Source: Chitinophaga pinensis (GTDB taxonomy: Bacteria > Bacteroidota > Bacteroidia > Chitinophagales > Chitinophagaceae). From it: DNA of 13,308 nt. Shown here piece after piece: positions 2,549 through 12,616 of this stretch. The first letter of the stretch is position 1; every line of letters begins with the position of its first letter. The stretch covers positions 1 to 13,308 of the forward strand of contig CALPKD020000008.1 in the NCBI GenBank assembly GCA_943324055.2, given 5' to 3'. The notes below the pieces were generated by a model. That model did not search any database, was not told the DNA's origin, and was given only the letters and a program-made list of their open reading frames with translations. Made by a program: the position numbers and the translations under genes.

Positions 2549-3550
2549 TTGAATAAAAAAGTACATATATTATTGTTGGCATTAATTTTTCTCATCAAAG
2601 TTAATGCACAAGTAATTAAATTTTCTCAGCCTTTCGTTGGGTCTCAAAATATGAGTCCTGCAACGACTGGGGATGGGTTGTATAAACAAAGAATACAAAG
2701 TAATTTAAAGACTCAGTTTATTGACGGGAATAATTTGTATAACAGTATTATTGTAGGTTGGGATAAGAAAATAATTAAAGAGGAAGAGGAAAACAAAAGC
2801 TATATAGGAATAGGAGGTCAGATTATATCTGATAGATTAATGGGAGGGATTGTTCAAAATAATTATATATCCTTGGCTTTGGCATACCACGTTACTTTTG
2901 ATAAAAATTTGTATAATTCTTTATCGTTAGGGATGAGTGGCGTTTTTTCTCAAACGACATTAGATAAGAGTAATTTGCTATTTGGAGACCAATATTATAC
3001 AACAGGTGTTCCTACTGGAGTAGGATCGCAAGAAAATTTAAAATCCTTTCCGTCAGGATTCGCTGTTAATACTGGACTCATGTTTTCAAGACACTCAGAA
3101 GAACTGTTTCTTCGATTAGGGGCTAATTTTTCTTTTTCTGCAAACCCGCAAGTAACCTACTCTTCATATAATAAAAGTGACGGGAGTATAAAAGCACTTT
3201 TTTTTAATGCTGAAACAAGAGTACTATATGATTATACACTAATGATATATGGGTCAGCTTCTGACCAAAATTCAAATCAAAATGTTATTTATGGTGGAGC
3301 GCTAAGCTTTCCAATAACGAGTAATTGGGAAAGGATTAAAAGATTATATATTGGCTGCTCAACTAGGCCTGGTGAAACTATTATCCCTACCTTCTCGTTG
3401 TTACTTGAAAACTATTCTTTTGGGATTAGTTATGATATCAATAATACCTCTATTACGGGTGCTCAAATGAAACAAAATGCCTTCGAAATCAGTTTTTCTA
3501 GATCTTTTGGGGCAAAAAAACCTGATCGTTTTAGAACTTTATTCGACTAG
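2549..3550 (+). CDS. PorP/SprF-family type IX secretion outer-membrane protein
   Basis: This 333-residue protein is predicted to be an outer-membrane beta-barrel of the PorP/SprF family, which works with the T9SS in secreting or anchoring proteins that carry type B C-terminal domains. A signal peptide (hydrophobic residues 7-18, cleavage after VNA at 20) is followed by SQNMSPATTG at about 32-41, which matches the family's NPAxxG-like segment after the signal peptide. The rest shows alternating beta-strand character (for example SLGMSGVFSQTTL and LFLRLGANFSF) and ends near an aromatic-rich strand. The start must be TTG at 2549: the same frame has stops at 2534 and 2540 and no ATG gives the signal peptide. 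The gene lies 12 bases after the CHU_C-tailed adhesin, so it is probably cotranscribed and dedicated to it. It is a family paralogue and not necessarily PorP or SprF itself. Confidence 0.85.
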   Translation: MNKKVHILLLALIFLIKVNAQVIKFSQPFVGSQNMSPATTGDGLYKQRIQSNLKTQFIDGNNLYNSIIVGWDKKIIKEEEENKSYIGIGGQIISDRLMGGIVQNNYISLALAYHVTFDKNLYNSLSLGMSGVFSQTTLDKSNLLFGDQYYTTGVPTGVGSQENLKSFPSGFAVNTGLMFSRHSEELFLRLGANFSFSANPQVTYSSYNKSDGSIKALFFNAETRVLYDYTLMIYGSASDQNSNQNVIYGGALSFPITSNWERIKRLYIGCSTRPGETIIPTFSLLLENYSFGISYDINNTSITGAQMKQNAFEISFSRSFGAKKPDRFRTLFD

Positions 3551-3639
3551 GTGGATAAAGTACTGATAATCATTGAATTGTAACAATTTTATGGACTCCT
3601 TAAAATAGTATTATTTATACTAATATTTTCATTTGGATA

Positions 3640-3670
3640 TTCAATAAATCAATCATATAAGCTACCTTTG
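3640..3670 (+). promoter_or_regulatory. Possible Bacteroidota-type promoter for the five-gene caspase cluster
   Basis: TACCTTTG at 3663-3670 fits the Bacteroidota -7 consensus TAnnTTTG exactly. The -33 element expected 19 bases upstream is only TTCA (3640-3643) instead of TTTG, so the match is partial. Transcription would begin near 3677, leaving about 50 bases of leader before the ATG at 3727. The 176-base gap (3551-3726) is the only sizeable one ahead of the cluster, which supports a promoter here, but it has not been shown. Confidence 0.4.
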
Positions 3671-3726
3671 AACTGAGTCAATATTACACTATTGCAATAA
3701 AATGTTTCATAATTAAAATAAATCAA

Positions 3727-4293
3727 ATGAAATCAATCGTTATTTTTTCAGCTTTTATATTATCTACTTTGGTAATGTCAAGTTGTGGTTCACCGAAAAA
3801 TATTCAAAGTGCGACTGGAGCCGAAGAGGTTTCAATACCTTTTAGTGAAAGTAAGTACAAAACTGACAAATCCAATTTTAGGGCGAGACAATCTGGAACT
3901 AGTCCCGATTTAGCAATGTCTAAGAAAATTGCACTTCAGAATGCTAAGACAGAACTTGCTAGAAATATAAAGGAGATTTTTAAGGTGGTTACTAGTCAAT
4001 ATTCTAATCAAAGAAGTGTAGGAACTAATCAGGAATATGAAAATAAAGTTGAGGAGCAAATCATTTCTTCTTTAAATGAAGCATTGACTGAAGTTGCAAT
4101 TATTGAAGAAAAAGTATTCAGAGAAAAAAATGGTTCATTTACATATTGGATAGTTGTTGAGAAGTCGAAGAGTTCAATTTTGGATGGTGCTAGTAATAAA
4201 ATATCTGCTGAATCCAAATTGAAATTAGATTATGATAAAAAGAAGTTCGAAGAAATTTTCAACAATGAAATGGAAAAGCTCGCAAATCAATAG
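3727..4293 (+). CDS. LPP20-like lipoprotein
   Basis: This 188-residue protein is predicted to be a membrane-anchored lipoprotein. It has a short signal peptide and the lipobox VMSSC, making Cys20 the lipidated residue (Met at -3 is tolerated but not typical). Residues about 58-150 resemble the LPP20 lipoprotein fold: a helix rich in Ala and Lys (IALQNAKTELARNI, 68-81) and later strands (VAIIEEKVF, then TYWIVVE). The C-terminal 35 residues are charged and probably helical. It is the first gene of the cluster, and its 3' end overlaps the next gene by 29 bases, so the two are probably translationally linked. The LPP20 family has no general biochemical function; its name comes from a Helicobacter envelope lipoprotein. 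The family assignment is moderate and rests on pattern only. Confidence 0.7.
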   Translation: MKSIVIFSAFILSTLVMSSCGSPKNIQSATGAEEVSIPFSESKYKTDKSNFRARQSGTSPDLAMSKKIALQNAKTELARNIKEIFKVVTSQYSNQRSVGTNQEYENKVEEQIISSLNEALTEVAIIEEKVFREKNGSFTYWIVVEKSKSSILDGASNKISAESKLKLDYDKKKFEEIFNNEMEKLANQ

Positions 4294-5098
4294 TCTTAAA
4301 TTATTTTTCATTATAATTGGAAGCCTTTTATTCCAAACCTTGACTGCTCAAAAAACGGTAAAGGTTTATGGAATAAAAGGTGTTTCATTTGTAACAGATA
4401 ACATAACATTAAAACAAGCAAGGCAAGAAGCATTGAATGATGCTAAGATGAATGCCTTGAAGGCCGCAGGAGTGATTGAAAATATCAACTCTTATGAGGC
4501 CTTTGTTTCAAGCGCAAATAATAGTGATTATAGTCAATATTATAGTTCAGGTATTTTATCTGAATTACAGGGTGCAATTCTTGATTTTAATTCATGTAAA
4601 CCTAACAAGGATACTTTATTCAAGAGCGAGCAATTTGAACATTTAATTGTAAATACCTTCATTGACGCTAGCATTATAGTATACGACACTAGGCCTGACG
4701 AGAGCTTCAATGTAAAGCTTGATGGGCTTAAGAGCGTCTATAATAATAAAGACAAATTGACATTTTCTATTTTGTCTACTCAAGACTGTTATTTAACAAT
4801 TTTCACTTCAATGGAAGAGAATGCATCTGTTCTATTTCCGAACAAATATGAAAATTCGTTCTTGATTCAAAAAAACAAACAAATCAATTTTCCAATAGGG
4901 CAGTCTGAATATGAGTTAACTACTGAAAAAAAGAATGGGGAAAAAAACAAAATCATTTTTGTATTTACTAAAAAGCCTAATTCATATATTAAAGTTGACA
5001 ATAATCAGGAAACTAAAATAGATGATGTTTTTAGTTGGATAAGTGCGATTACGCCAGATCAAAAAAGGGTGGAATACAAAACATTTATAATTCAATAG
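4265..5098 (+). CDS. Exported LPP20-like / DUF4384 protein
   Basis: The start is placed at the ATG at 4265 (277 residues), because it gives a normal signal peptide: basic MKWK, hydrophobic LKLFFIIIGSLLF, and cleavage after LTA at about 28. The in-frame ATG at 4232 would add eleven charged residues and lengthen the overlap with the upstream gene. Residues about 30-140 resemble an LPP20/FlgT-type N-terminal fold (QARQEALNDAKMNALKAAGV at 51-70). Residues about 148-240 fit DUF4384: a strand pair with DKLTFSILSTQDCYLTIF (163-180) and then VLFPN (189-193). DUF4384 is often found fused to, or beside, bacterial caspase-like domains, which fits the C14 gene at the end of this cluster. It probably acts in the periplasm. 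No catalytic motif is seen. Confidence 0.7.
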   Translation: MKWKSSQINSLKLFFIIIGSLLFQTLTAQKTVKVYGIKGVSFVTDNITLKQARQEALNDAKMNALKAAGVIENINSYEAFVSSANNSDYSQYYSSGILSELQGAILDFNSCKPNKDTLFKSEQFEHLIVNTFIDASIIVYDTRPDESFNVKLDGLKSVYNNKDKLTFSILSTQDCYLTIFTSMEENASVLFPNKYENSFLIQKNKQINFPIGQSEYELTTEKKNGEKNKIIFVFTKKPNSYIKVDNNQETKIDDVFSWISAITPDQKRVEYKTFIIQ

Positions 5099-5108
5099 AC
5101 GCAGCTCA

Positions 5109-5948
5109 ATGAGATTAGTTACTTTATTTTTATTTTTTATATTATGTTCATCTAAATTGATAGGTCAAGATATTCAAAATGTTGACTACTTTGTTTATGA
5201 TGACCATGTGAAAGTGATTTATGATTTGGTTAATTGCCCTGAAAATAGATCTTATGACGTCTCAGTTATTTTTACAAAACCGGATGGGTCATCTATTTAT
5301 CCTTCAAGTCTTAAAGGGGACATAGTAGGAGTTAAGCCTGGAACGGGTAAAGAAATTCTATGGTATTTCAAGACCGATGTGGATGAATATAATGGAGAAA
5401 TTAAAGCGGTTGTAACAATTTCTAAAGTAAATGATTTAACTCAACCAATTAATAAATCTACTGACGCTGTAGTCAATCCAACAATTTATCCAAATGAAAG
5501 TCCAAATAGGTATCGAAGTAATGTAACTGCTAAAGGTGGAGCTGATAATTTTTTATTATCTATGATTTTACCTGGTTTGGGAGGCCATTTTGTAAACAAT
5601 AGAGATAAAGTATCCCCCTATTTAATTACTGCCGCATTTTTAGGTGTTGGATATATGGCCTATTCAACTATGAATTCAGCGAATGATTATTTTGATAAGT
5701 ATTTAGACACAAAAAGTCAAGTAGTCATGGATGAAATGTATTCTAAGGCAATAGAGAATCGGAATCAACATCAAGTATATATGGGTATCGCCGGTGCAAT
5801 TTGGCTATATGATGTGGTACATGTCATTATTAAAGGTTCTAAAAATGATAAGCAAAGAAATTTTGGAGGCGGTGTTAAATTAATACCAAAGTATTATAGA
5901 AGTCAAAAGTCAAATCCTTTTGAACTCTTATTGGTAAAATCGTTTTAA
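5109..5948 (+). CDS. Exported protein with beta-rich N-terminus and hydrophobic C-terminal half
   Basis: This 279-residue protein is not recognised as a named family. A signal peptide (residues 1-19, cleavage after LIG at about 19) leads into a beta-rich domain at about 22-105. It has the pattern HVKVIYDLVNC, SYDVSVIFTKPDGS, GDIVGVKPG and KEILWYF. I recall this pattern from the N-termini of Bacteroidota envelope proteins, but cannot name a family. After a polar linker (106-145) comes a hydrophobic region with LLSMILPGLGGHFVNN (149-164), a probable membrane segment at 171-186 and another at 223-241. The PGLG(x)F part resembles small membrane proteins of the DUF5683/TM2 kind. The tail is basic. 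It starts 10 bases after the DUF4384 gene and ends 2 bases before the lipoprotein gene, so it belongs to the same transcript. Inner-membrane topology with an exported N-domain is inferred. Confidence 0.65.
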   Translation: MRLVTLFLFFILCSSKLIGQDIQNVDYFVYDDHVKVIYDLVNCPENRSYDVSVIFTKPDGSSIYPSSLKGDIVGVKPGTGKEILWYFKTDVDEYNGEIKAVVTISKVNDLTQPINKSTDAVVNPTIYPNESPNRYRSNVTAKGGADNFLLSMILPGLGGHFVNNRDKVSPYLITAAFLGVGYMAYSTMNSANDYFDKYLDTKSQVVMDEMYSKAIENRNQHQVYMGIAGAIWLYDVVHVIIKGSKNDKQRNFGGGVKLIPKYYRSQKSNPFELLLVKSF

Positions 5949-5950
5949 AC

Positions 5951-8164
5951 ATGAAGTACGTATTAAGTTTAATATTATTTATTTCACTTGTTTCTTGTGT
6001 AAAAGAAATGAAGCGAACGAATCCACTTGATGGGAAAACTCTGCCATTGGTTGTGACAAATACTGCTACTAATTTATTGAGCACATCTGCAACTGCAGGA
6101 GGCTATGTGAAAAATGATGGCGGGTTATCTATTATTAAGTATGGGATGGTTTGGAGCAAAGCGCCTAATGCTTCACCTGACATATCTTCTAAAGTTGAAG
6201 TTAATAGTAGTGCTAATTATTTTTCTTTCAAAATTTCACCTTTGACTCCTTATACTACTTATTATGTTAGAGCTTTTGCTACAAATTTAGTAGGAACCGC
6301 ATATGGTTCAGAGTACACCTTTCGCACTAACGCAGATAGTGCCTCGTTAACAACCTTGGCCCCCGGATCAGTAACTTCGAATAGTTTTGTTACTGGAGGT
6401 AATATCTCATCAGAAAATGGATCTCCCGTTACGCTCAGAGGGCTTGTTTATTCAACACTATCTTTTCCAACTATCACTTCAGGAGTAGGAGTCAATGTAT
6501 ATAAAGATTCATTAAAAGGGCCTGGTATTTTTACTCGTACCCTATCAAGTTTAAGCCCAGGGATTACTTATTTTGTTCGGGCTTATGCACAAAATTCGTT
6601 TGGTACAAGTTATGGAAACCAAGTGACAGTCACTACGAATGCTACATTTCCAATTTTAAGTACCTATTCAGTGTCTGCAATTACCTCTTATACTGGTAGT
6701 TCAGGAGCGACTGTTGTATCAGATGGTGGTGCTGCGATTAATGCTAAAGGAGTTGTATGGAGTAAAACGCCGCTTCCTACAGTTGAACTTTCCGCCAAGA
6801 CAATGGATGGAATAGGTATTGCGTCCTTTAAATCTACATTGACGCCGCTCGTACCTGGAACTTTATACTATGTAAGGGCTTATGCAACGAATATCGTAGG
6901 AACAGCTTACGGAGCACAAGAGAGTTTTACAACATCTCCTTTAGGCCCAACAGTAGTTACAGGATCTACTAAGACAGTTAAATCAACCGAAGTTGATATT
7001 GATGCCAATATTGTAAACGATGGTGGCTCGGCTGTTACAGACTATGGGTTTGTGTATAGTTTATATTCTTTTTCTACGATTTCAACTGGCACCAAAGTGA
7101 ATGTTGGGAATAGTACTGGGGGGTTTAGTAATAACATTGGGTATAGTACTGTAGTAAAAAATTTAACTCCAGGTACTAAATATTACATTAGAGCTTATGC
7201 AACAAATAAGGTTAATACTGCCTATGGAGATGATGTGGTATTTAATACTTTTATTTCAGTGCCTATGTTAACTACTTCTAGTCCAGCATTAAGTATCGGA
7301 GAGAACTCTGCTATTGTTAATGCAATTATTTCAAATACTGGTGGATCTGCAATTATTTCAAAAGGAATAGTATGGAGTAAAAGTTCAGGTCCAACCATTT
7401 CCGACTTTAAAGCGTATGATTATTCAACAAGTACTTCAATAACAGCTTCACTTAATAATTTAGAGCCAGGTACTAAATATTATGCTAAAGCATTTGCACA
7501 AAATTTAGCAGGAATTAATTATAGTGATAATGAAATATTATTTACTACAACGGATAATAGTCCTAAGTTGGCTTCAATGACAGTTGGTTCTGTAACAGTT
7601 AATGCTGCAACATTTTCGGCAAAAACTACGTCACAAGGTATTAGTGCGATTACCTCCAAAGGATTTATTTTATCTAAAACTTTACCTTTGACTTATTTTA
7701 GTGGTTCTACATCTTATTATTTTGGAGCAGGATTAGGAGATTTGGCAAAGGTAGTAACAGGTTTATCACCTGGCACTAATTATTACGCATGCGCATATGC
7801 AACAAATAATAATATAACCTATGGGTATAGTAATATAATTCAATTTAAAACATTAGTGGACTCTCCTAGAGTAATGACTGATTATCCACTCAGTAGCAGT
7901 GCAATTGAGATATTGCTTTATGCAAATGCAACGTCTGATGGTGGAGGAACAATTTCTAAAAAAGGGTTTGTTTGGTCTACAACAGCTGGTGCAAAGGTGG
8001 GAGTAACGAATACTTCAGACAATGGGGTTGGAGTTGGCGCTTTCTCATTTACATTAAACTTTGCTACTTTATTAAAAAATACCACCTATTACTATCGTGC
8101 TTATGCAACAAACGAAATAGGTACGACATATGGGACTGATAAAACCTTCACAACACTGAAATAG
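5951..8164 (+). CDS. Lipoprotein made of seven fibronectin-III-like repeats
   Basis: This 737-residue protein is predicted to be anchored by lipid at Cys16 (signal peptide with lipobox SLVSC). It then has seven beta-sandwich repeats of about 100 residues, roughly at 34-127, 131-229, 233-330, 334-434, 437-534, 537-634 and 638-737. Each ends with a version of T-x-Y-Y-V-R-A-Y-A-T-N-x-x-G-T-x-Y-G and then a TFTT-like strand. Most also have GGxxIxxKGxVWS. This FN3-like type is common in Bacteroidota surface lipoproteins. No enzyme domain is present, so a binding or scaffolding role is likely but inferred. The stop codon follows directly after the last repeat, so the whole mature protein is repeat. 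It starts 2 bases after the previous gene and ends 6 bases before the caspase gene, which argues for a joint role with the caspase. Confidence 0.85.
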   Translation: MKYVLSLILFISLVSCVKEMKRTNPLDGKTLPLVVTNTATNLLSTSATAGGYVKNDGGLSIIKYGMVWSKAPNASPDISSKVEVNSSANYFSFKISPLTPYTTYYVRAFATNLVGTAYGSEYTFRTNADSASLTTLAPGSVTSNSFVTGGNISSENGSPVTLRGLVYSTLSFPTITSGVGVNVYKDSLKGPGIFTRTLSSLSPGITYFVRAYAQNSFGTSYGNQVTVTTNATFPILSTYSVSAITSYTGSSGATVVSDGGAAINAKGVVWSKTPLPTVELSAKTMDGIGIASFKSTLTPLVPGTLYYVRAYATNIVGTAYGAQESFTTSPLGPTVVTGSTKTVKSTEVDIDANIVNDGGSAVTDYGFVYSLYSFSTISTGTKVNVGNSTGGFSNNIGYSTVVKNLTPGTKYYIRAYATNKVNTAYGDDVVFNTFISVPMLTTSSPALSIGENSAIVNAIISNTGGSAIISKGIVWSKSSGPTISDFKAYDYSTSTSITASLNNLEPGTKYYAKAFAQNLAGINYSDNEILFTTTDNSPKLASMTVGSVTVNAATFSAKTTSQGISAITSKGFILSKTLPLTYFSGSTSYYFGAGLGDLAKVVTGLSPGTNYYACAYATNNNITYGYSNIIQFKTLVDSPRVMTDYPLSSSAIEILLYANATSDGGGTISKKGFVWSTTAGAKVGVTNTSDNGVGVGAFSFTLNFATLLKNTTYYYRAYATNEIGTTYGTDKTFTTLK
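6050..8161 (+). repeat. Seven ~300-base coding repeats (FN3-like domains)
   Basis: Unit starts are near 6050, 6341, 6648, 6948, 7259, 7559 and 7862, a spacing of about 290-310 bases. The most conserved DNA segment encodes RAYATN (for example near 6874, 7192 and 8097, with gcttatgcaac shared). Elsewhere the units are well diverged at both DNA and protein level. This points to old domain duplication, with the aromatic and Gly-Thr turn residues kept by folding needs. Confidence 0.8.
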
Positions 8165-8170
8165 TTTATT

Positions 8171-9868
8171 ATGAAATTGATAAAATATGCGTTTTTCTTT
8201 TATACACTATTTATTGGCAATAATATTAATGCTCAATCTGGGCAAAGTAGTTTTAAATCAGTCAAACTAGTAGGTGTGCCCAAGCCAATGGCGCCTGCAA
8301 ATCTAATTTTAAGCGATTTGATATTTTCGGACGTGAAAGGAAATGAGAATAATGCCTTAGATGCGAATGAAACGGCTGTGTTAAGTTTTGATATTGAAAA
8401 TAATGGAAAAGGCGATGCATATCGTATTAAAATATTTATCCAGGACAGCTCAAATGTAAAAGGAGTAAGCTTTAATAGCGAGGTACTCATTGGAAATCTG
8501 GCTCCGGGTAATAAGACGAATGTGGTAATACCTATAAAAGGGACAACCGATTTAGTAACGTCTAACACTAATTTTTTAATTAGGGTTACGGAGGGAAATA
8601 ATTTTGATCCAGATCCGGTTGCCATTTCTTTTGCTACGAAAGAGTACAAAAAATCAATTATAACCATTGCAGATGCAGCGTTTTCAAGTGAAGATGAAGC
8701 CAAGATTACAACAGGAAAAATAGTAAGATTAACTTTGCTTATTCAAAACCAAGGTGAAGGAGATGCGAAAAATTTGACGGTAGAATTTGTTAACCCGACT
8801 GATGTATTTGCATCTAATGACAATAAGTTTCAGTTTTCCGAATTAAAATCGAATGAATCAAAATTAATTAAGTATGATTTTTTCGCTAATACAAAATACA
8901 AAGCGATTGATATACCAATTCAGGTTAAAGTATCTGAAAATTTTAATAAAGTTGTTTTATCGGAAACCAAGTCAATAGGAATTGAACAAAATTTGGCGAT
9001 AGTAAAAAAAGTTAATGTACTAGATGTTAAAGATGAAAAACGTGTAATTGTACCAGTTTCATTAATTTCTGATGTGGATAAAGACATTCCTATTGCTAAA
9101 TCTAAATTCAAAAATAGGTATGCTTTAATTATTGGAAACGAGGATTATTCAACTTTTCAAACAGGACTTGCAAAAGAAGTCAATGTTGATTTTGCAAAAA
9201 ATGATGCAAAGATATTTAAAGAGTATAGCCAAAGAACGCTTGGTATTCCAGCAGAAAATATTAATTTATTAATCAATGCAACGTATGGTGCTATGATGCA
9301 GGCTATTGACAGGATTAACAAATTGGTAAAAAATTCGGAAGGGGATTTGGAAATATTTTTCTACTATGCTGGTCATGGATTGCCAGATGAGGAGACCAAA
9401 GAATCTTATTTAATTCCAGTTGATATTAGTGGTGCTAACGTTAAAAGTGCAGTGAAGCTACAGGATGTTTATAAATCATTTTCCGAATACGAGTCATTGG
9501 GTGTTACCGTGTTTATCGATGCCTGCTTTAGTGGAGGCGCAAGGAATCAGCAAATGGTTAATGCAAGGGGAGTTAAAGTGGTTCCTAGAGCTGATTATTT
9601 ACAAGGTAATATTGTAAGTTTCACAGCAAGTAGTAGCAATCAATCTTCCAATGCTTATGTTGACAAGAAGCATGGGTTATTTACTTATTTTGTACTTAAA
9701 GCTTTGCAGGATTCTAAGGGAGATTTGAGCTATAAGGATCTTTGGGAATCTATTAAGAAAAAAGTCAGTTTCGAGTCAATAAGAGTAAATAATAAAGAAC
9801 AAGACCCTCAAATAAATATTGGAGAGAAAGCAAAGAATAGTTGGGAGAAGTCTAAATTTGTTTATTAA
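8171..9868 (+). CDS. Exported caspase-like (peptidase C14) protein with two N-terminal beta domains
   Basis: This 565-residue protein is predicted to be a Sec-exported cysteine peptidase of the bacterial caspase-like/orthocaspase group. The signal peptide covers residues 1-21 (cleavage after NINA). Two related beta-sandwich domains follow at about 42-155 and 163-262. Both carry the CARDB/NEW3-like pattern LxFDIENNGKGDAY (71-84) and LTLLIQNQGEGDAKN (187-201). The caspase domain runs from about 314 to 550: YALIIGNEDY (317-326), catalytic His402 in YYAGHG and catalytic Cys452 in DACFSGG, with the downstream TASSSNQ strand and HGLFTYFVLKAL helix of the p10-like half. The dyad is intact, so it is probably active. 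Caspase-fold enzymes cut after Arg/Lys (metacaspase-like) or Asp; the preference cannot be told here. No T9SS C-terminal domain is seen, so it probably stays in the periplasm. It is the last gene of the cluster and converges with the GNAT gene 4 bases away. Confidence 0.9.
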   Translation: MKLIKYAFFFYTLFIGNNINAQSGQSSFKSVKLVGVPKPMAPANLILSDLIFSDVKGNENNALDANETAVLSFDIENNGKGDAYRIKIFIQDSSNVKGVSFNSEVLIGNLAPGNKTNVVIPIKGTTDLVTSNTNFLIRVTEGNNFDPDPVAISFATKEYKKSIITIADAAFSSEDEAKITTGKIVRLTLLIQNQGEGDAKNLTVEFVNPTDVFASNDNKFQFSELKSNESKLIKYDFFANTKYKAIDIPIQVKVSENFNKVVLSETKSIGIEQNLAIVKKVNVLDVKDEKRVIVPVSLISDVDKDIPIAKSKFKNRYALIIGNEDYSTFQTGLAKEVNVDFAKNDAKIFKEYSQRTLGIPAENINLLINATYGAMMQAIDRINKLVKNSEGDLEIFFYYAGHGLPDEETKESYLIPVDISGANVKSAVKLQDVYKSFSEYESLGVTVFIDACFSGGARNQQMVNARGVKVVPRADYLQGNIVSFTASSSNQSSNAYVDKKHGLFTYFVLKALQDSKGDLSYKDLWESIKKKVSFESIRVNNKEQDPQINIGEKAKNSWEKSKFVY

Positions 9869-9872
9869 GTAG

Positions 9873-10322
9873 CTAAAAACTAATTGAGCAGTTCACCCAT
9901 TCAGGGTCAAATGTTGCATTGTATTTTTTGTAAAAATTAATTGCTGGCTCATTCCAATCTAGCACCTGCCAGTTCATTCCTTTGTAATTTTTTTCTTTGG
10001 CCTCTTGTATTAATGCATCAAACAATAAGCTGCCTATTTTTTTTCCACGCATTTCCTCAGTTACGAGTAAATCCTCCAAATACATTCTTTGTCCTTTCCA
10101 AGTTGAATATCTTATATAGTACAAAGCAATCCCAATTACCACTCCTTGTACTTCGGCTACAAATGCCCACCATATTGGGTTTGGACCAAATCCACTTTCT
10201 TTAAAATGGGCTAAGGTCACGGTTACTTCGTCTGGTGCTTTTTCGTAATTGGCTAACTCCTGGATGAGTTCTAACATTCTAGCACAATCGGCTTTTTTTG
10301 CGCGGCGTATAATAATGTCCAT
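9873..10322 (-). CDS. GNAT N-acetyltransferase, SAT1 (diamine acetyltransferase)-like
   Basis: This 149-residue cytoplasmic protein should transfer an acetyl group from acetyl-CoA to an amine. It matches the spermidine/spermine acetyltransferase (SAT1) type along its length: IRRAKKADCARMLELIQELA (5-24), YEKAPDEV (26-33), a GFG loop (44-46), and YLEDLLV (81-87). It then has the acetyl-CoA pyrophosphate loop RGKKIG (92-97) and WNEPAINFYKKYNA (123-136), where Tyr131 is in the place of the general acid. Eukaryotic and bacterial relatives act on polyamines, thialysine or similar amines; the true substrate is not settled by sequence. The C-terminus is short (ending EWVNCSISF, with no final helix), about 15-20 residues less than animal SAT1. 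It lies 28 bases after the PLP enzyme gene and is probably the last gene of that transcript. Confidence 0.88.
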   Translation of the reverse strand: MDIIIRRAKKADCARMLELIQELANYEKAPDEVTVTLAHFKESGFGPNPIWWAFVAEVQGVVIGIALYYIRYSTWKGQRMYLEDLLVTEEMRGKKIGSLLFDALIQEAKEKNYKGMNWQVLDWNEPAINFYKKYNATFDPEWVNCSISF

Positions 10323-10350: not shown

Positions 10351-11577
10351 TTATATTTTAGCGAGTGCCTGTGTCAAATCCCATTCTAAATCTTCCATAT
10401 TCTCAATACCCACACTCATTCTAATTAAACCATCGGTGATGCCGTATTTTATTCTTTCATCTCTTGGTATTCCATAATGTGTCATGCTAGCTGGGTGGGA
10501 CACTAGTGTATCTACTGTGCCTAATGACACAGCACGTGTACATACTTGTAATGCATCAATAAATTTCTTTCCAGCATCTAGCCCGCCTTTTAATTCAAAG
10601 CTCAATAATGGGGCATGTTGTTTCATTTGCTTACTCGCTATTGCATGATCCGGATGGGAAGCGAATCCCGTATAGTTCACGTGTGCTATAGCTGGATGAT
10701 TTTCTAAAAATGCAGCCACTTTTGCAGCATTGCTACAATGTCTTTCCATTCTTATTTCCAATGTCTTCATTCCTTGTATTAATAAGTAGGAATCAAATGC
10801 ATTGCTATTGCCTCCTAATAAAACATGCCATTTCCAAACCTTGGTATTCATTAATTCCAAATCCTTTCCTAGTAAAACGCCATTTAATGCGGATCCGTGT
10901 CCATTTAAAAATTTAGTTGCAGAATGGAAAACGAAATCAGCGCCTAACGCAAATGGTTGTTGTAAATAAGGAGTCGCTACAGTATTGTCTACCGAAACCT
11001 TTACATTATGTGTATGTGCTATTTTGCAAATTGCTTCAATATCAACACACTGTAAGGTAGGGTTGGCAGGTGTTTCAAGGTGAATGAGTTTTGTAGTTGG
11101 ATTATTTTTTAATGTGGTTTCAAGTAAATCTAAATCTTTGATATTTATGAGTACCACATTAACGCCTGCTTCAGCTAACACTTTTTGCATTAATTCCTGA
11201 GAACCTCCATATAATGAATAGTGAGAAATCAACGTATCTCCTGCACTTAAATTACTAAAAAATAAAGTAGTCATGGCGGCTTGCCCACTCGCATGTAACA
11301 ACGCTTTTAATTGTAACGGTTCCCCTTTTTCATTTTTTAAACCATGTGCTTCTAATGCTGCAATAGTTACTTCGGCCGCCGTAAAAGTAGGGTTACCCCA
11401 TCTTGTGTATATTCTTGTTTTATCTGTACTTTTAAAACGTTCCATTCCTTCGTCTGTTGAATCAAACGTAAAAGTGGACGTTGCATAGATAGGAGTAGTG
11501 TGTGAAAAATTATCGTTTTCATGACTAGCAGTATGAAGTGTTAATGTACTTATGCCCTTAAATTGTTGCTTACTCAT
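10351..11577 (-). CDS. Trans-sulfuration-family PLP enzyme (cystathionine gamma-synthase/lyase-like)
   Basis: This 408-residue cytoplasmic enzyme belongs to the Cys/Met metabolism PLP-dependent family (fold type I). It shows Tyr57 and Arg59 in YTRWGNPT (phosphate binding from the partner subunit), the SGQAAM loop (97-102), Tyr123 in LYGG, Asp197 in DNTVATPY (pyridine nitrogen), and the Schiff-base Lys222 in HSATKFLNGHG. It ends with SHPASMTH and LIRMSVGIE, which bind the substrate carboxylate. The reaction is probably C-S bond formation or cleavage on homoserine- or cysteine-derived substrates. The residue after Tyr-Gly at 123-124 is Gly, as in cystathionine synthases and lyases, and not the Cys typical of methionine gamma-lyase, so that name is disfavoured. 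Synthase, lyase and O-acetylhomoserine sulfhydrylase cannot be separated by eye. It follows fabH by 46 bases. The upstream AGGA, 3 bases before the ATG, is a plausible ribosome site. Confidence 0.88.
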   Translation of the reverse strand: MSKQQFKGISTLTLHTASHENDNFSHTTPIYATSTFTFDSTDEGMERFKSTDKTRIYTRWGNPTFTAAEVTIAALEAHGLKNEKGEPLQLKALLHASGQAAMTTLFFSNLSAGDTLISHYSLYGGSQELMQKVLAEAGVNVVLINIKDLDLLETTLKNNPTTKLIHLETPANPTLQCVDIEAICKIAHTHNVKVSVDNTVATPYLQQPFALGADFVFHSATKFLNGHGSALNGVLLGKDLELMNTKVWKWHVLLGGNSNAFDSYLLIQGMKTLEIRMERHCSNAAKVAAFLENHPAIAHVNYTGFASHPDHAIASKQMKQHAPLLSFELKGGLDAGKKFIDALQVCTRAVSLGTVDTLVSHPASMTHYGIPRDERIKYGITDGLIRMSVGIENMEDLEWDLTQALAKI

Positions 11578-11623
11578 ATTCCTAATTTTTAGATAATTGA
11601 AAACCGTTTATTAAATATACCAA

Positions 11624-12616
11624 TTAATATGCCCACTTTAGCCAAGCTGCGCCCCAAGTAAATCCACCTCCAAAAGCAGCAAGTACAATGTTGTCGCCCT
11701 TGTTTAACCTTGACTCCCATTCCCATAAACACAATGGAATAGTCGCTGCAGTTGTGTTTCCGTATTTTTGAATATTGATCATTACCTTTTCGATTGGTAA
11801 GCCCATTCTGTTTGCGGTTGCATCGATGATTCTTAAATTGGCTTGGTGTGGAACCAGCCAAGCAATGTCGTCCCCAGTTAAATTGTGTTTTTCCAATAGT
11901 TCAGCGCTTACATCGGCCATCCCTTTTACTGCAAATTTAAATACGGGTTGCCCATCCTGAAACGCATAATGTTCTTTTGCCATTACGGTTTCAATAGAGG
12001 CAGGTTTTAAACTTCCACCGGCTTTGATATGCAAAAATTCGCATCCGCTTCCATCGCTCTTTAATATTGAATCTTGGTAACCTAAGCCTTCCATATTTGG
12101 TTCAAGTAAAACTGCACCAGCACCATCTCCAAAAATGATACAAGTAGCACGGTCAGTATAATCAATAATTGAACTCATTTTATCTACGCCTACTACAATG
12201 ATTTTTTTGTAACGTCCTGATTCAATAAAGTTGGAACCAGTAGTAAGTGCGAATAAAAATCCGCTACAAGCAGCACCTAAGTCAAAACCAAATGCGTTTT
12301 TTGCACCAATTTTATTTCCAATAATATTAGCTGTCGCAGGAAATACCATGTCCGGGGTTACCGTTGCACAAATAATGCAATCGATTTCCAATGGGTCTAA
12401 ATTCTTTTTTCGTAGAATTTCCTCAATGGCTTTTACGGCCATATCGGAACTCGCTTTTCCCGGCTCTCTTAAAATGCGTCTTTCAGAGATCCCTGTTCTG
12501 CTTCTGATCCATTCGTCATTGGTATCTACCATCTTTTCAAGGTCAAAATTGGTTAATTTGGTCTCTGGAACATATCCGCCTACAGCGGTGATTGCGGCTC
12601 TCAAGGGGGTCGACAT
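11624..12616 (-). CDS. fabH: 3-oxoacyl-[acyl-carrier-protein] synthase III
   Basis: This 330-residue cytoplasmic enzyme starts fatty-acid synthesis by condensing an acyl-CoA with malonyl-ACP. The complete catalytic triad is present: Cys117 in GAACSGF, His257 in PHQAN and Asn287 in YGNTTAA. Other family marks are [16 protein letters not shown] (32-47), [10 protein letters not shown] (163-172) and the C-terminal [10 protein letters not shown]. Length and start (ATG at 12616, MSTPLRAAI) are normal for FabH. No strong Shine-Dalgarno sequence precedes it, as is common in Bacteroidota. It is divergent from ruvA and is probably first in a transcript with the PLP enzyme and the GNAT protein; the functional link between these three is not evident. 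Bacteroidota often carry several FabH-like paralogues, so primer choice (straight or branched) is not fixed by this sequence. Confidence 0.95.

Follow-up and report, generated by a model that had tools for sequence, protein, structure and literature searches.

What would a caspase-like peptidase do outside the cell interior? Discussion of bacterial caspases usually places them in the cytoplasm, as enzymes of cell death or defence. The window analysed here is a stretch of 13,308 nucleotides (bases 1-13308 of contig CALPKD020000008.1) from an incomplete Bacteroidota genome (1.59 Mb, completeness 56%). It contains five adjacent genes, the last of which encodes a caspase-like peptidase with a putative export signal. 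A preliminary description of this DNA had linked the five genes by their layout, and had proposed envelope stress sensing, processing of surface proteins, or self-killing as their function. Our favoured answer is that the five genes may form an accessory cassette that carries out regulated proteolysis outside the cytoplasm and would process surface lipoproteins. We put the probability of this at roughly 0.45. Among the functions proposed earlier, the comparative data lean towards surface-protein processing.

The recurrent core of the cassette is gene 2, with an FlgT_N-like domain and an Ig-like DUF4384 domain, together with gene 5, an exported orthocaspase with a CARDB domain. An LPP20 lipoprotein (gene 1) often accompanies them.

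The recurrent pair of a DUF4384 protein and an exported caspase

Gene 2 (4265..5098, + strand, 277 amino acids) encodes an exported protein whose C-terminal part matches DUF4384 (PF14326; 4739..4978, + strand; E = 7.2e-12, 45.7 bits versus a cut-off of 27). DUF4384 was thus correctly placed on a protein separate from the caspase. (The program that listed the open reading frames started gene 2 at 4232, and the in-frame ATG at 4265 sets the signal peptide at the N-terminus.) A protein search found 115 homologues of gene 2.

When species genomes from GTDB were scanned with no query but the gene 2 family, 25 loci emerged. Of these, 18 have a member of the gene 5 caspase family no more than 5 kb away and on the same strand, versus 0.2 expected (based on 0-10 C14 genes per genome), and the caspase is often 0-50 bases from gene 2. 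We saw the same association in a second sample of 296 Bacteroidota genomes. There, 29 of 50 places with DUF4384 are within 5 kb of a caspase place (0.28 expected), and these 29 include 15 of the 17 stand-alone DUF4384 frames (220-310 amino acids). If the gene 2 profile itself is used, 6 of 8 places are near a caspase. Conversely, these genomes contain 9 close relatives of gene 5 (E up to 1.3e-40), and for 6 of them a DUF4384 gene is at most 5 kb away. The proximity of gene 2 and the caspase is far beyond chance, which supports the link that had been drawn from the layout. As judged from sequence and gene context, the pair recurs, sometimes with gene 1, whose homologue adjoins gene 2 in 10 of the 25 loci. 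The matches to gene 2 extend to Cloacimonadota and Neomarinimicrobiota (L028, L029, and L031).

The caspases near gene 2 look exported. The nearest caspase starts with a strongly hydrophobic stretch in 16 of the 18 loci, in line with the earlier claim of an exported caspase; as for the other two, there is masked sequence just upstream in L028, and the gene runs off the contig in L031. In the window, all five products have export signals by eye: lipobox-like SSC in gene 1, LVSC in gene 4, and Sec-type signals with glutamine (Q) at +1 in genes 2, 3, and 5. We also used a crude hydropathy rule of our own with a threshold of 1.9, which genes 1-4 pass and gene 5 just misses (1.89), but the rule is lax, as 144 of 224 neighbouring open reading frames of at least 150 amino acids also pass. 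For gene 5, 3023 homologues were found, and 107 of the best 120 share the glutamine after the predicted cleavage site (Q22). The assignment of a signal peptide or lipobox to every product, which had been made at the outset, agrees with this.

Gene 5 (8171..9868, + strand, 565 amino acids) matches Peptidase_C14 (PF00656) well above the cut-off (E = 7.1e-20, 72.1 bits versus 21.4), and it has a CARDB domain at residues 175-247 (8693..8911, + strand; 8.1e-8). Its Pfam matches are C14, CARDB, and DUF11 only, with no C25 peptidase domain. The catalytic residues had been described as intact, and His402 (9374..9376, + strand) and Cys452 (9524..9526, + strand) are indeed invariant, both in 33 of 33 aligned homologues and in 120 of 120 (the best 120 of 3023). 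Asp345 (9203..9205, + strand) and Asp450 (9518..9520, + strand, two residues before the cysteine) are also kept in 120 of those 120. In the metacaspase TbMC2, Asp95 and Asp211 of the S1 pocket bind the basic P1 residue, according to PMC6426788, and we propose Asp345 and Asp450 as their counterparts by motif position only. (Sequence searches with gene 5 did not reach any solved caspase in the PDB.) Characterised C14 members other than animal caspases cleave after Arg or Lys, as stated in PMC5756287. Because of the two invariant aspartates and the preference of all of the characterised non-animal C14 enzymes, gene 5 is predicted to cut after Arg or Lys.

Gene 5 resembles the orthocaspases (MEROPS C14B, PF00656) in its C14 match, its His/Cys dyad, its proposed acidic-pocket aspartates, and its association with accessory domains or repeats. 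It differs in having an export signal, a CARDB domain, and a recurrent exported DUF4384 partner. A survey of orthocaspases mentions N-terminal helices that are perhaps signal peptides, and possible death roles at the surface (PMC3501461); its main text does not contain the word CARDB. Polymorphic toxins also include exported caspase domains, which release a joined protein part (PMC3482391), but the cassette has no toxin domain or immunity gene. As for DUF4384, fusions to caspase or kinase domains are known, and in our sample it sometimes shares one open frame with C14 (for example, in G210:C1 and G346:C42). Here it also goes with C14, but it is on a distinct exported protein that has an N-terminal domain of its own.

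Other C14 genes were seen as well. The window's own genome has a second one (L001; G000:C13:3534-4298) of about 265 amino acids, without an obvious signal peptide and followed by an exported-looking open reading frame. In G186:C1, G186:C23, and G206:C6, several C14 genes are clustered on one contig each.

Possible scaffold proteins and exchangeable modules

All five genes are on the + strand, with an overlap of 29 bases and then gaps of 10, 2, and 6 bases, just as had been described; this spacing suggests a single transcript. The first gene, gene 1 (3727..4293, + strand, 188 amino acids), encodes a lipoprotein that had been called LPP20-like. The protein in the window falls short of Pfam's cut-off for LPP20 (PF02169; single-sequence E = 0.75, 10.7 bits versus 25.9), but 9 of 11 members of its family match LPP20 at E ≤ 1 (best 3e-6), and the family profile matches two solved LPP20 structures (4kzs, 5.8e-4, and 5ok8, 4.5e-3). 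So at the family level the name holds, and gene 1 is a distant relative of LPP20, as judged by profile similarity, and not a member by the curated cut-off. (When Pfam was run on the window's proteins, genes 1 and 3 had no family over the cut-off.) Similarly, the N-terminal part of gene 2 is a distant relative of FlgT_N at the level of its family: 20 of 31 family members match at E ≤ 1 (best 3.5e-4), and the window's gene 2 is below the cut-off (E = 0.11, 13.5 bits versus 28.8).

Outer-membrane ring proteins have an SHS2-like fold that is found in both LPP20 and FlgT, and on this basis genes 1 and 2 probably encode a scaffold, which would hold and gate the caspase at the outer membrane. PMC12222027 describes this fold as common to FlgP, LPP20, and FlgT, and states that ring formation in the family accompanies extra sequence inserted after the SHS2 helix and before the second strand. 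In our AlphaFold2 model of gene 2 (mean predicted local distance difference test score, or pLDDT, of 83.6), the N-terminal domain is a strand, a helix, and more strands; helices at residues 74-94 lie between the long helix and the second strand, where confidence is lower; and an Ig-like sandwich spans DUF4384. Because the modelled helices are at the site of the SHS2 insertion, a ring-like platform that holds the caspase at the outer membrane is possible. Genes 1 and 2 resemble the ring proteins in their LPP20 and FlgT_N similarities and in encoding small exported or lipid-anchored proteins. They differ in that the window has no flagellar gene, in the pairing with a caspase, and in the DUF4384 domain of gene 2.

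The other two genes are less widespread. Gene 3 (5109..5948, + strand, 279 amino acids) encodes an exported protein with an N-terminal beta-domain and, by eye, predicted membrane helices at its C-terminus. The protein search found two homologues, and besides the window, the full-length gene adjoins the cassette just once (L016). Its N-terminal domain (residues 1-110; 5109..5438, + strand) is found more broadly. In a profile search, this domain heads caspases in L009, L007 (two caspases), and L018, and the first caspase of L007 (E = 4.8e-14) and the L018 caspase (3.9e-10) were both outside the set from which the profile was built. In L015, it heads two adjacent proteins. In L034 and L035, from another family, a stand-alone gene-3-type domain lies between a gene 2-like gene and a caspase; the order there is caspase (seen in L034), gene 2-like, gene-3-type domain, caspase. 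Gene 4 (5951..8164, + strand, 737 amino acids) encodes a lipoprotein with seven FN3-like repeats, as counted by eye (Pfam fn3, 57 bits, and related FN3 models). The initial expectation was that relatives of all four upstream genes would lie near caspases. This held for genes 1 and 2 and for the N-terminal domain of gene 3, but for gene 4, it held in only one other genome (L016, 41% identity).

More broadly, the gene 2 loci differ in the modules that are fused to the caspase or adjacent to it. Considering caspases within 5 kb, in the 18 loci and the window, we found WD40 repeats in L012, L018, L028, L029, and L031; WG repeats in L023, L024, L025, and L027; MORN in L015; LRR in L020; PEGA in L008; the gene-3 domain in L007 and L009 (and also in L018); and a separate FN3 lipoprotein in the window and L016. 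No module was recognised in L011, L014, or L026. (The WG assignments for L024, L023, and L025 and the WD40 assignments for L028 and L031 are by similarity to L027 and L029.) These modules are exchangeable, and they may provide recognition, whether as FN3, WD40, WG, MORN, LRR, PEGA, or the gene-3 domain. L018 also has a probable nuclease-like open reading frame, as judged by eye, between gene 2 and the caspases (10777-11778).

Insert site and distribution in the genus

The cassette lies in an insert (3551..9872, + strand) between a porP/sprF-like gene (2549-3550) and a GNAT gene on the - strand that ends at 9873. The right-hand junction is the same in L016. A search with the GNAT gene gave matches in 54 of 61 genomes, and from these places we picked 20 regions from the same genus. 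In 10 of the 20, a porP/sprF-like gene adjoins the GNAT gene with a gap of less than about 40 bases (the sprF match in L074 and L076 is confined to a short piece), and most of these 10 also have a large protein of the type IX secretion system (T9SS) behind sprF. The other 10 regions have no sprF there, and the cassette was seen in none of the 20. Of six sprF homologues, five match the PorP/SprF model, one of them over the cut-off, and the window's own copy has no match. To the left of sprF in the window is a partial large protein (2-2536) that combines a T9SS sorting domain of type B (CHU_C, TIGR04131) with repeats of the YDG and MBG_2 families; the same pair of genes precedes the insert site in relatives.

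Among 147 genomes of the genus, the caspase profile matches in 17, and only two matches are full-length: the window and G442, which looks like the genome of L016, given its contig number and place. L016 has genes 1-5 in the same order with the same right-hand neighbours, and its left side is a contig end. Its proteins are 32, 42, 50, 41, and 62% identical to genes 1-5, versus 73% for GNAT, 82% for a methionine-gamma-lyase-like gene, 88% for FabH, and 83% for RuvA. A third member of the genus (G048) has a piece of a caspase and then a gene 2-like open reading frame (L004). Because of its sparse presence in the genus and its low identities relative to the flanking genes, we consider the cassette to be a patchy, fast-changing accessory block.

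What the caspase might cut

Four gut Bacteroidales bear on the function. These loci (L023, L024, L025, and L027, at about 2200-13450) contain a seven-gene run that includes the pair of gene 2 and caspase, in the order BACON, LRR, lipoprotein, lipoprotein, exported protein, DUF4384, and WG/caspase. The predicted structure of one of the lipoproteins is like the pilus anchor Mfa2. In Porphyromonas, arginine gingipain processes surface lipoproteins, namely type V pilins. Like arginine gingipain (Rgp; C25, clan CD), gene 5 would be an exported clan-CD cysteine peptidase with a basic P1 residue, and pilus-like lipoproteins adjoin the caspase in the gut loci. Unlike it, gene 5 is C14 and not C25; no model of a T9SS C-terminal sorting domain matched gene 5; and the window has no fimbrillin. 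We suggest that the caspase most likely cuts surface lipoproteins encoded in the same cassette (gene 4 in the window), and therefore, by analogy with gingipain and type V pilins, that the task of the system would be the maturation or release of a surface structure. The most detailed version of this proposal, in which an SHS2-fold scaffold gates an Arg/Lys orthocaspase that matures surface lipoproteins or type V-like pilins, is unlikely to be right in all its parts.

Several observations weigh against regulated processing of surface lipoproteins. No caspase was seen within 5 kb in 7 of the 25 gene-2 loci. For five of these (L010, L013, L017, L019, and L021), a contig end is no more than 8 kb away, which is not so for L022 or for L030, itself a partial match; the genome of L013 has no C14 match anywhere. 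Also, 3 of the 9 close relatives of gene 5 in the 296 genomes have no DUF4384 gene nearby, and gene 4 accompanies the set in just two genomes, the window and L016. The similarity to Mfa2 is modest: the model has a pLDDT of 63.9 from 4 sequences, and the Foldseek match has a TM-score of about 0.5 and a root-mean-square deviation of 8.4. The only Pfam hit for this lipoprotein is Mfa2, in 1 of 4 relatives, at 19.7 bits versus a cut-off of 21.2. The gut counterpart of gene 1 has little similarity to LPP20 (hhalign probability of 42%), and a structure search with it found no LPP20 structure. The window itself lacks a pilus-like gene, with no Mfa or FimA family among the Pfam matches of the five proteins. 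Finally, the WD40-type repeats and the patchiness fit a conflict system, and to our knowledge, intracellular-type repeats such as WD40 are not usual on surface processing enzymes.

In such an envelope conflict or self-killing system, the repeats would sense an invader or envelope damage, the scaffold would activate the caspase, and essential periplasmic or outer-membrane proteins would be destroyed. The discrete insert, the full-length relative in just 2 of 147 genomes, and the exchangeable repeats would all fit, and bacterial caspases with WD40, NACHT, or other repeats are widely proposed to act in cell death (PMC3501461). The cassette also diverges fast (32-62% identity versus 73-88% for the four flanking genes), but so do sprF (39-49%) and other nearby genes for exported proteins, and divergence by itself is therefore not very informative. 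On the other hand, Pfam identified none of the five as a killer gene, such as one for a pore or a nuclease; the PADLOC models, compared one by one with no scan for complete systems, match only a generic caspase (gene 5, 7.1e-11) and, weakly, PD-T4-6 (gene 1, 0.0056); and the partner proteins are of envelope-assembly types. We favour the processing of surface lipoproteins over self-killing, which we consider unlikely, because the gut loci place the pair beside an Mfa2-like protein, that is, they pair the caspase with pilus-like lipoproteins.

The caspase might instead act in envelope stress or surface signalling, by cutting one regulator, such as the gene 3 membrane protein, when gene 4 binds a ligand. 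The probable membrane helices of gene 3, the fusion of its N-terminal domain to caspases elsewhere, and the ability of FN3 repeats to bind ligands or partners would suit this idea, but neither the five genes nor their listed neighbours in the window include a two-component gene, a sigma factor, or an anti-sigma factor, and we view it as improbable. More doubtful still is a role as an exoprotease that breaks down foreign proteins on the cell surface, whether for nutrition or defence. An exported peptidase does adjoin a repeat lipoprotein, and polymer degradation by metacaspases of Bacteroidetes has been speculated about (PMC4933709), but C14 enzymes are highly site-selective, and Pfam found no transporter or SusCD-like genes in the cassette. 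As for five chance neighbours with no joint function, gene 4 is conserved in one other genome only and the argument for a shared transcript comes from spacing, but chance would hardly put a caspase near 18 of 25 gene-2 loci (0.2 expected) or near 29 of 50 DUF4384 places (0.28 expected), or fuse the gene 3 domain to caspases. We give this explanation almost no credence.

Overall, the recurrence of the pair in distant bacteria suggests that caspases have a use beyond the cell interior about which little is known. Because the exported caspase is conserved and has a DUF4384 protein as its dedicated partner, DUF4384 gains a testable role, and the cassette offers a candidate class of caspase substrates, the co-encoded surface lipoproteins. 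It also suggests which enzyme might process the pilus-like proteins of gut Bacteroidales that carry this operon. If the most detailed version of our proposal is correct, then an enzyme of the caspase family would have the job that in Porphyromonas falls to arginine gingipain, exchangeable repeats would choose its target, and caspases would have a ring-like activation platform outside the cytoplasm.

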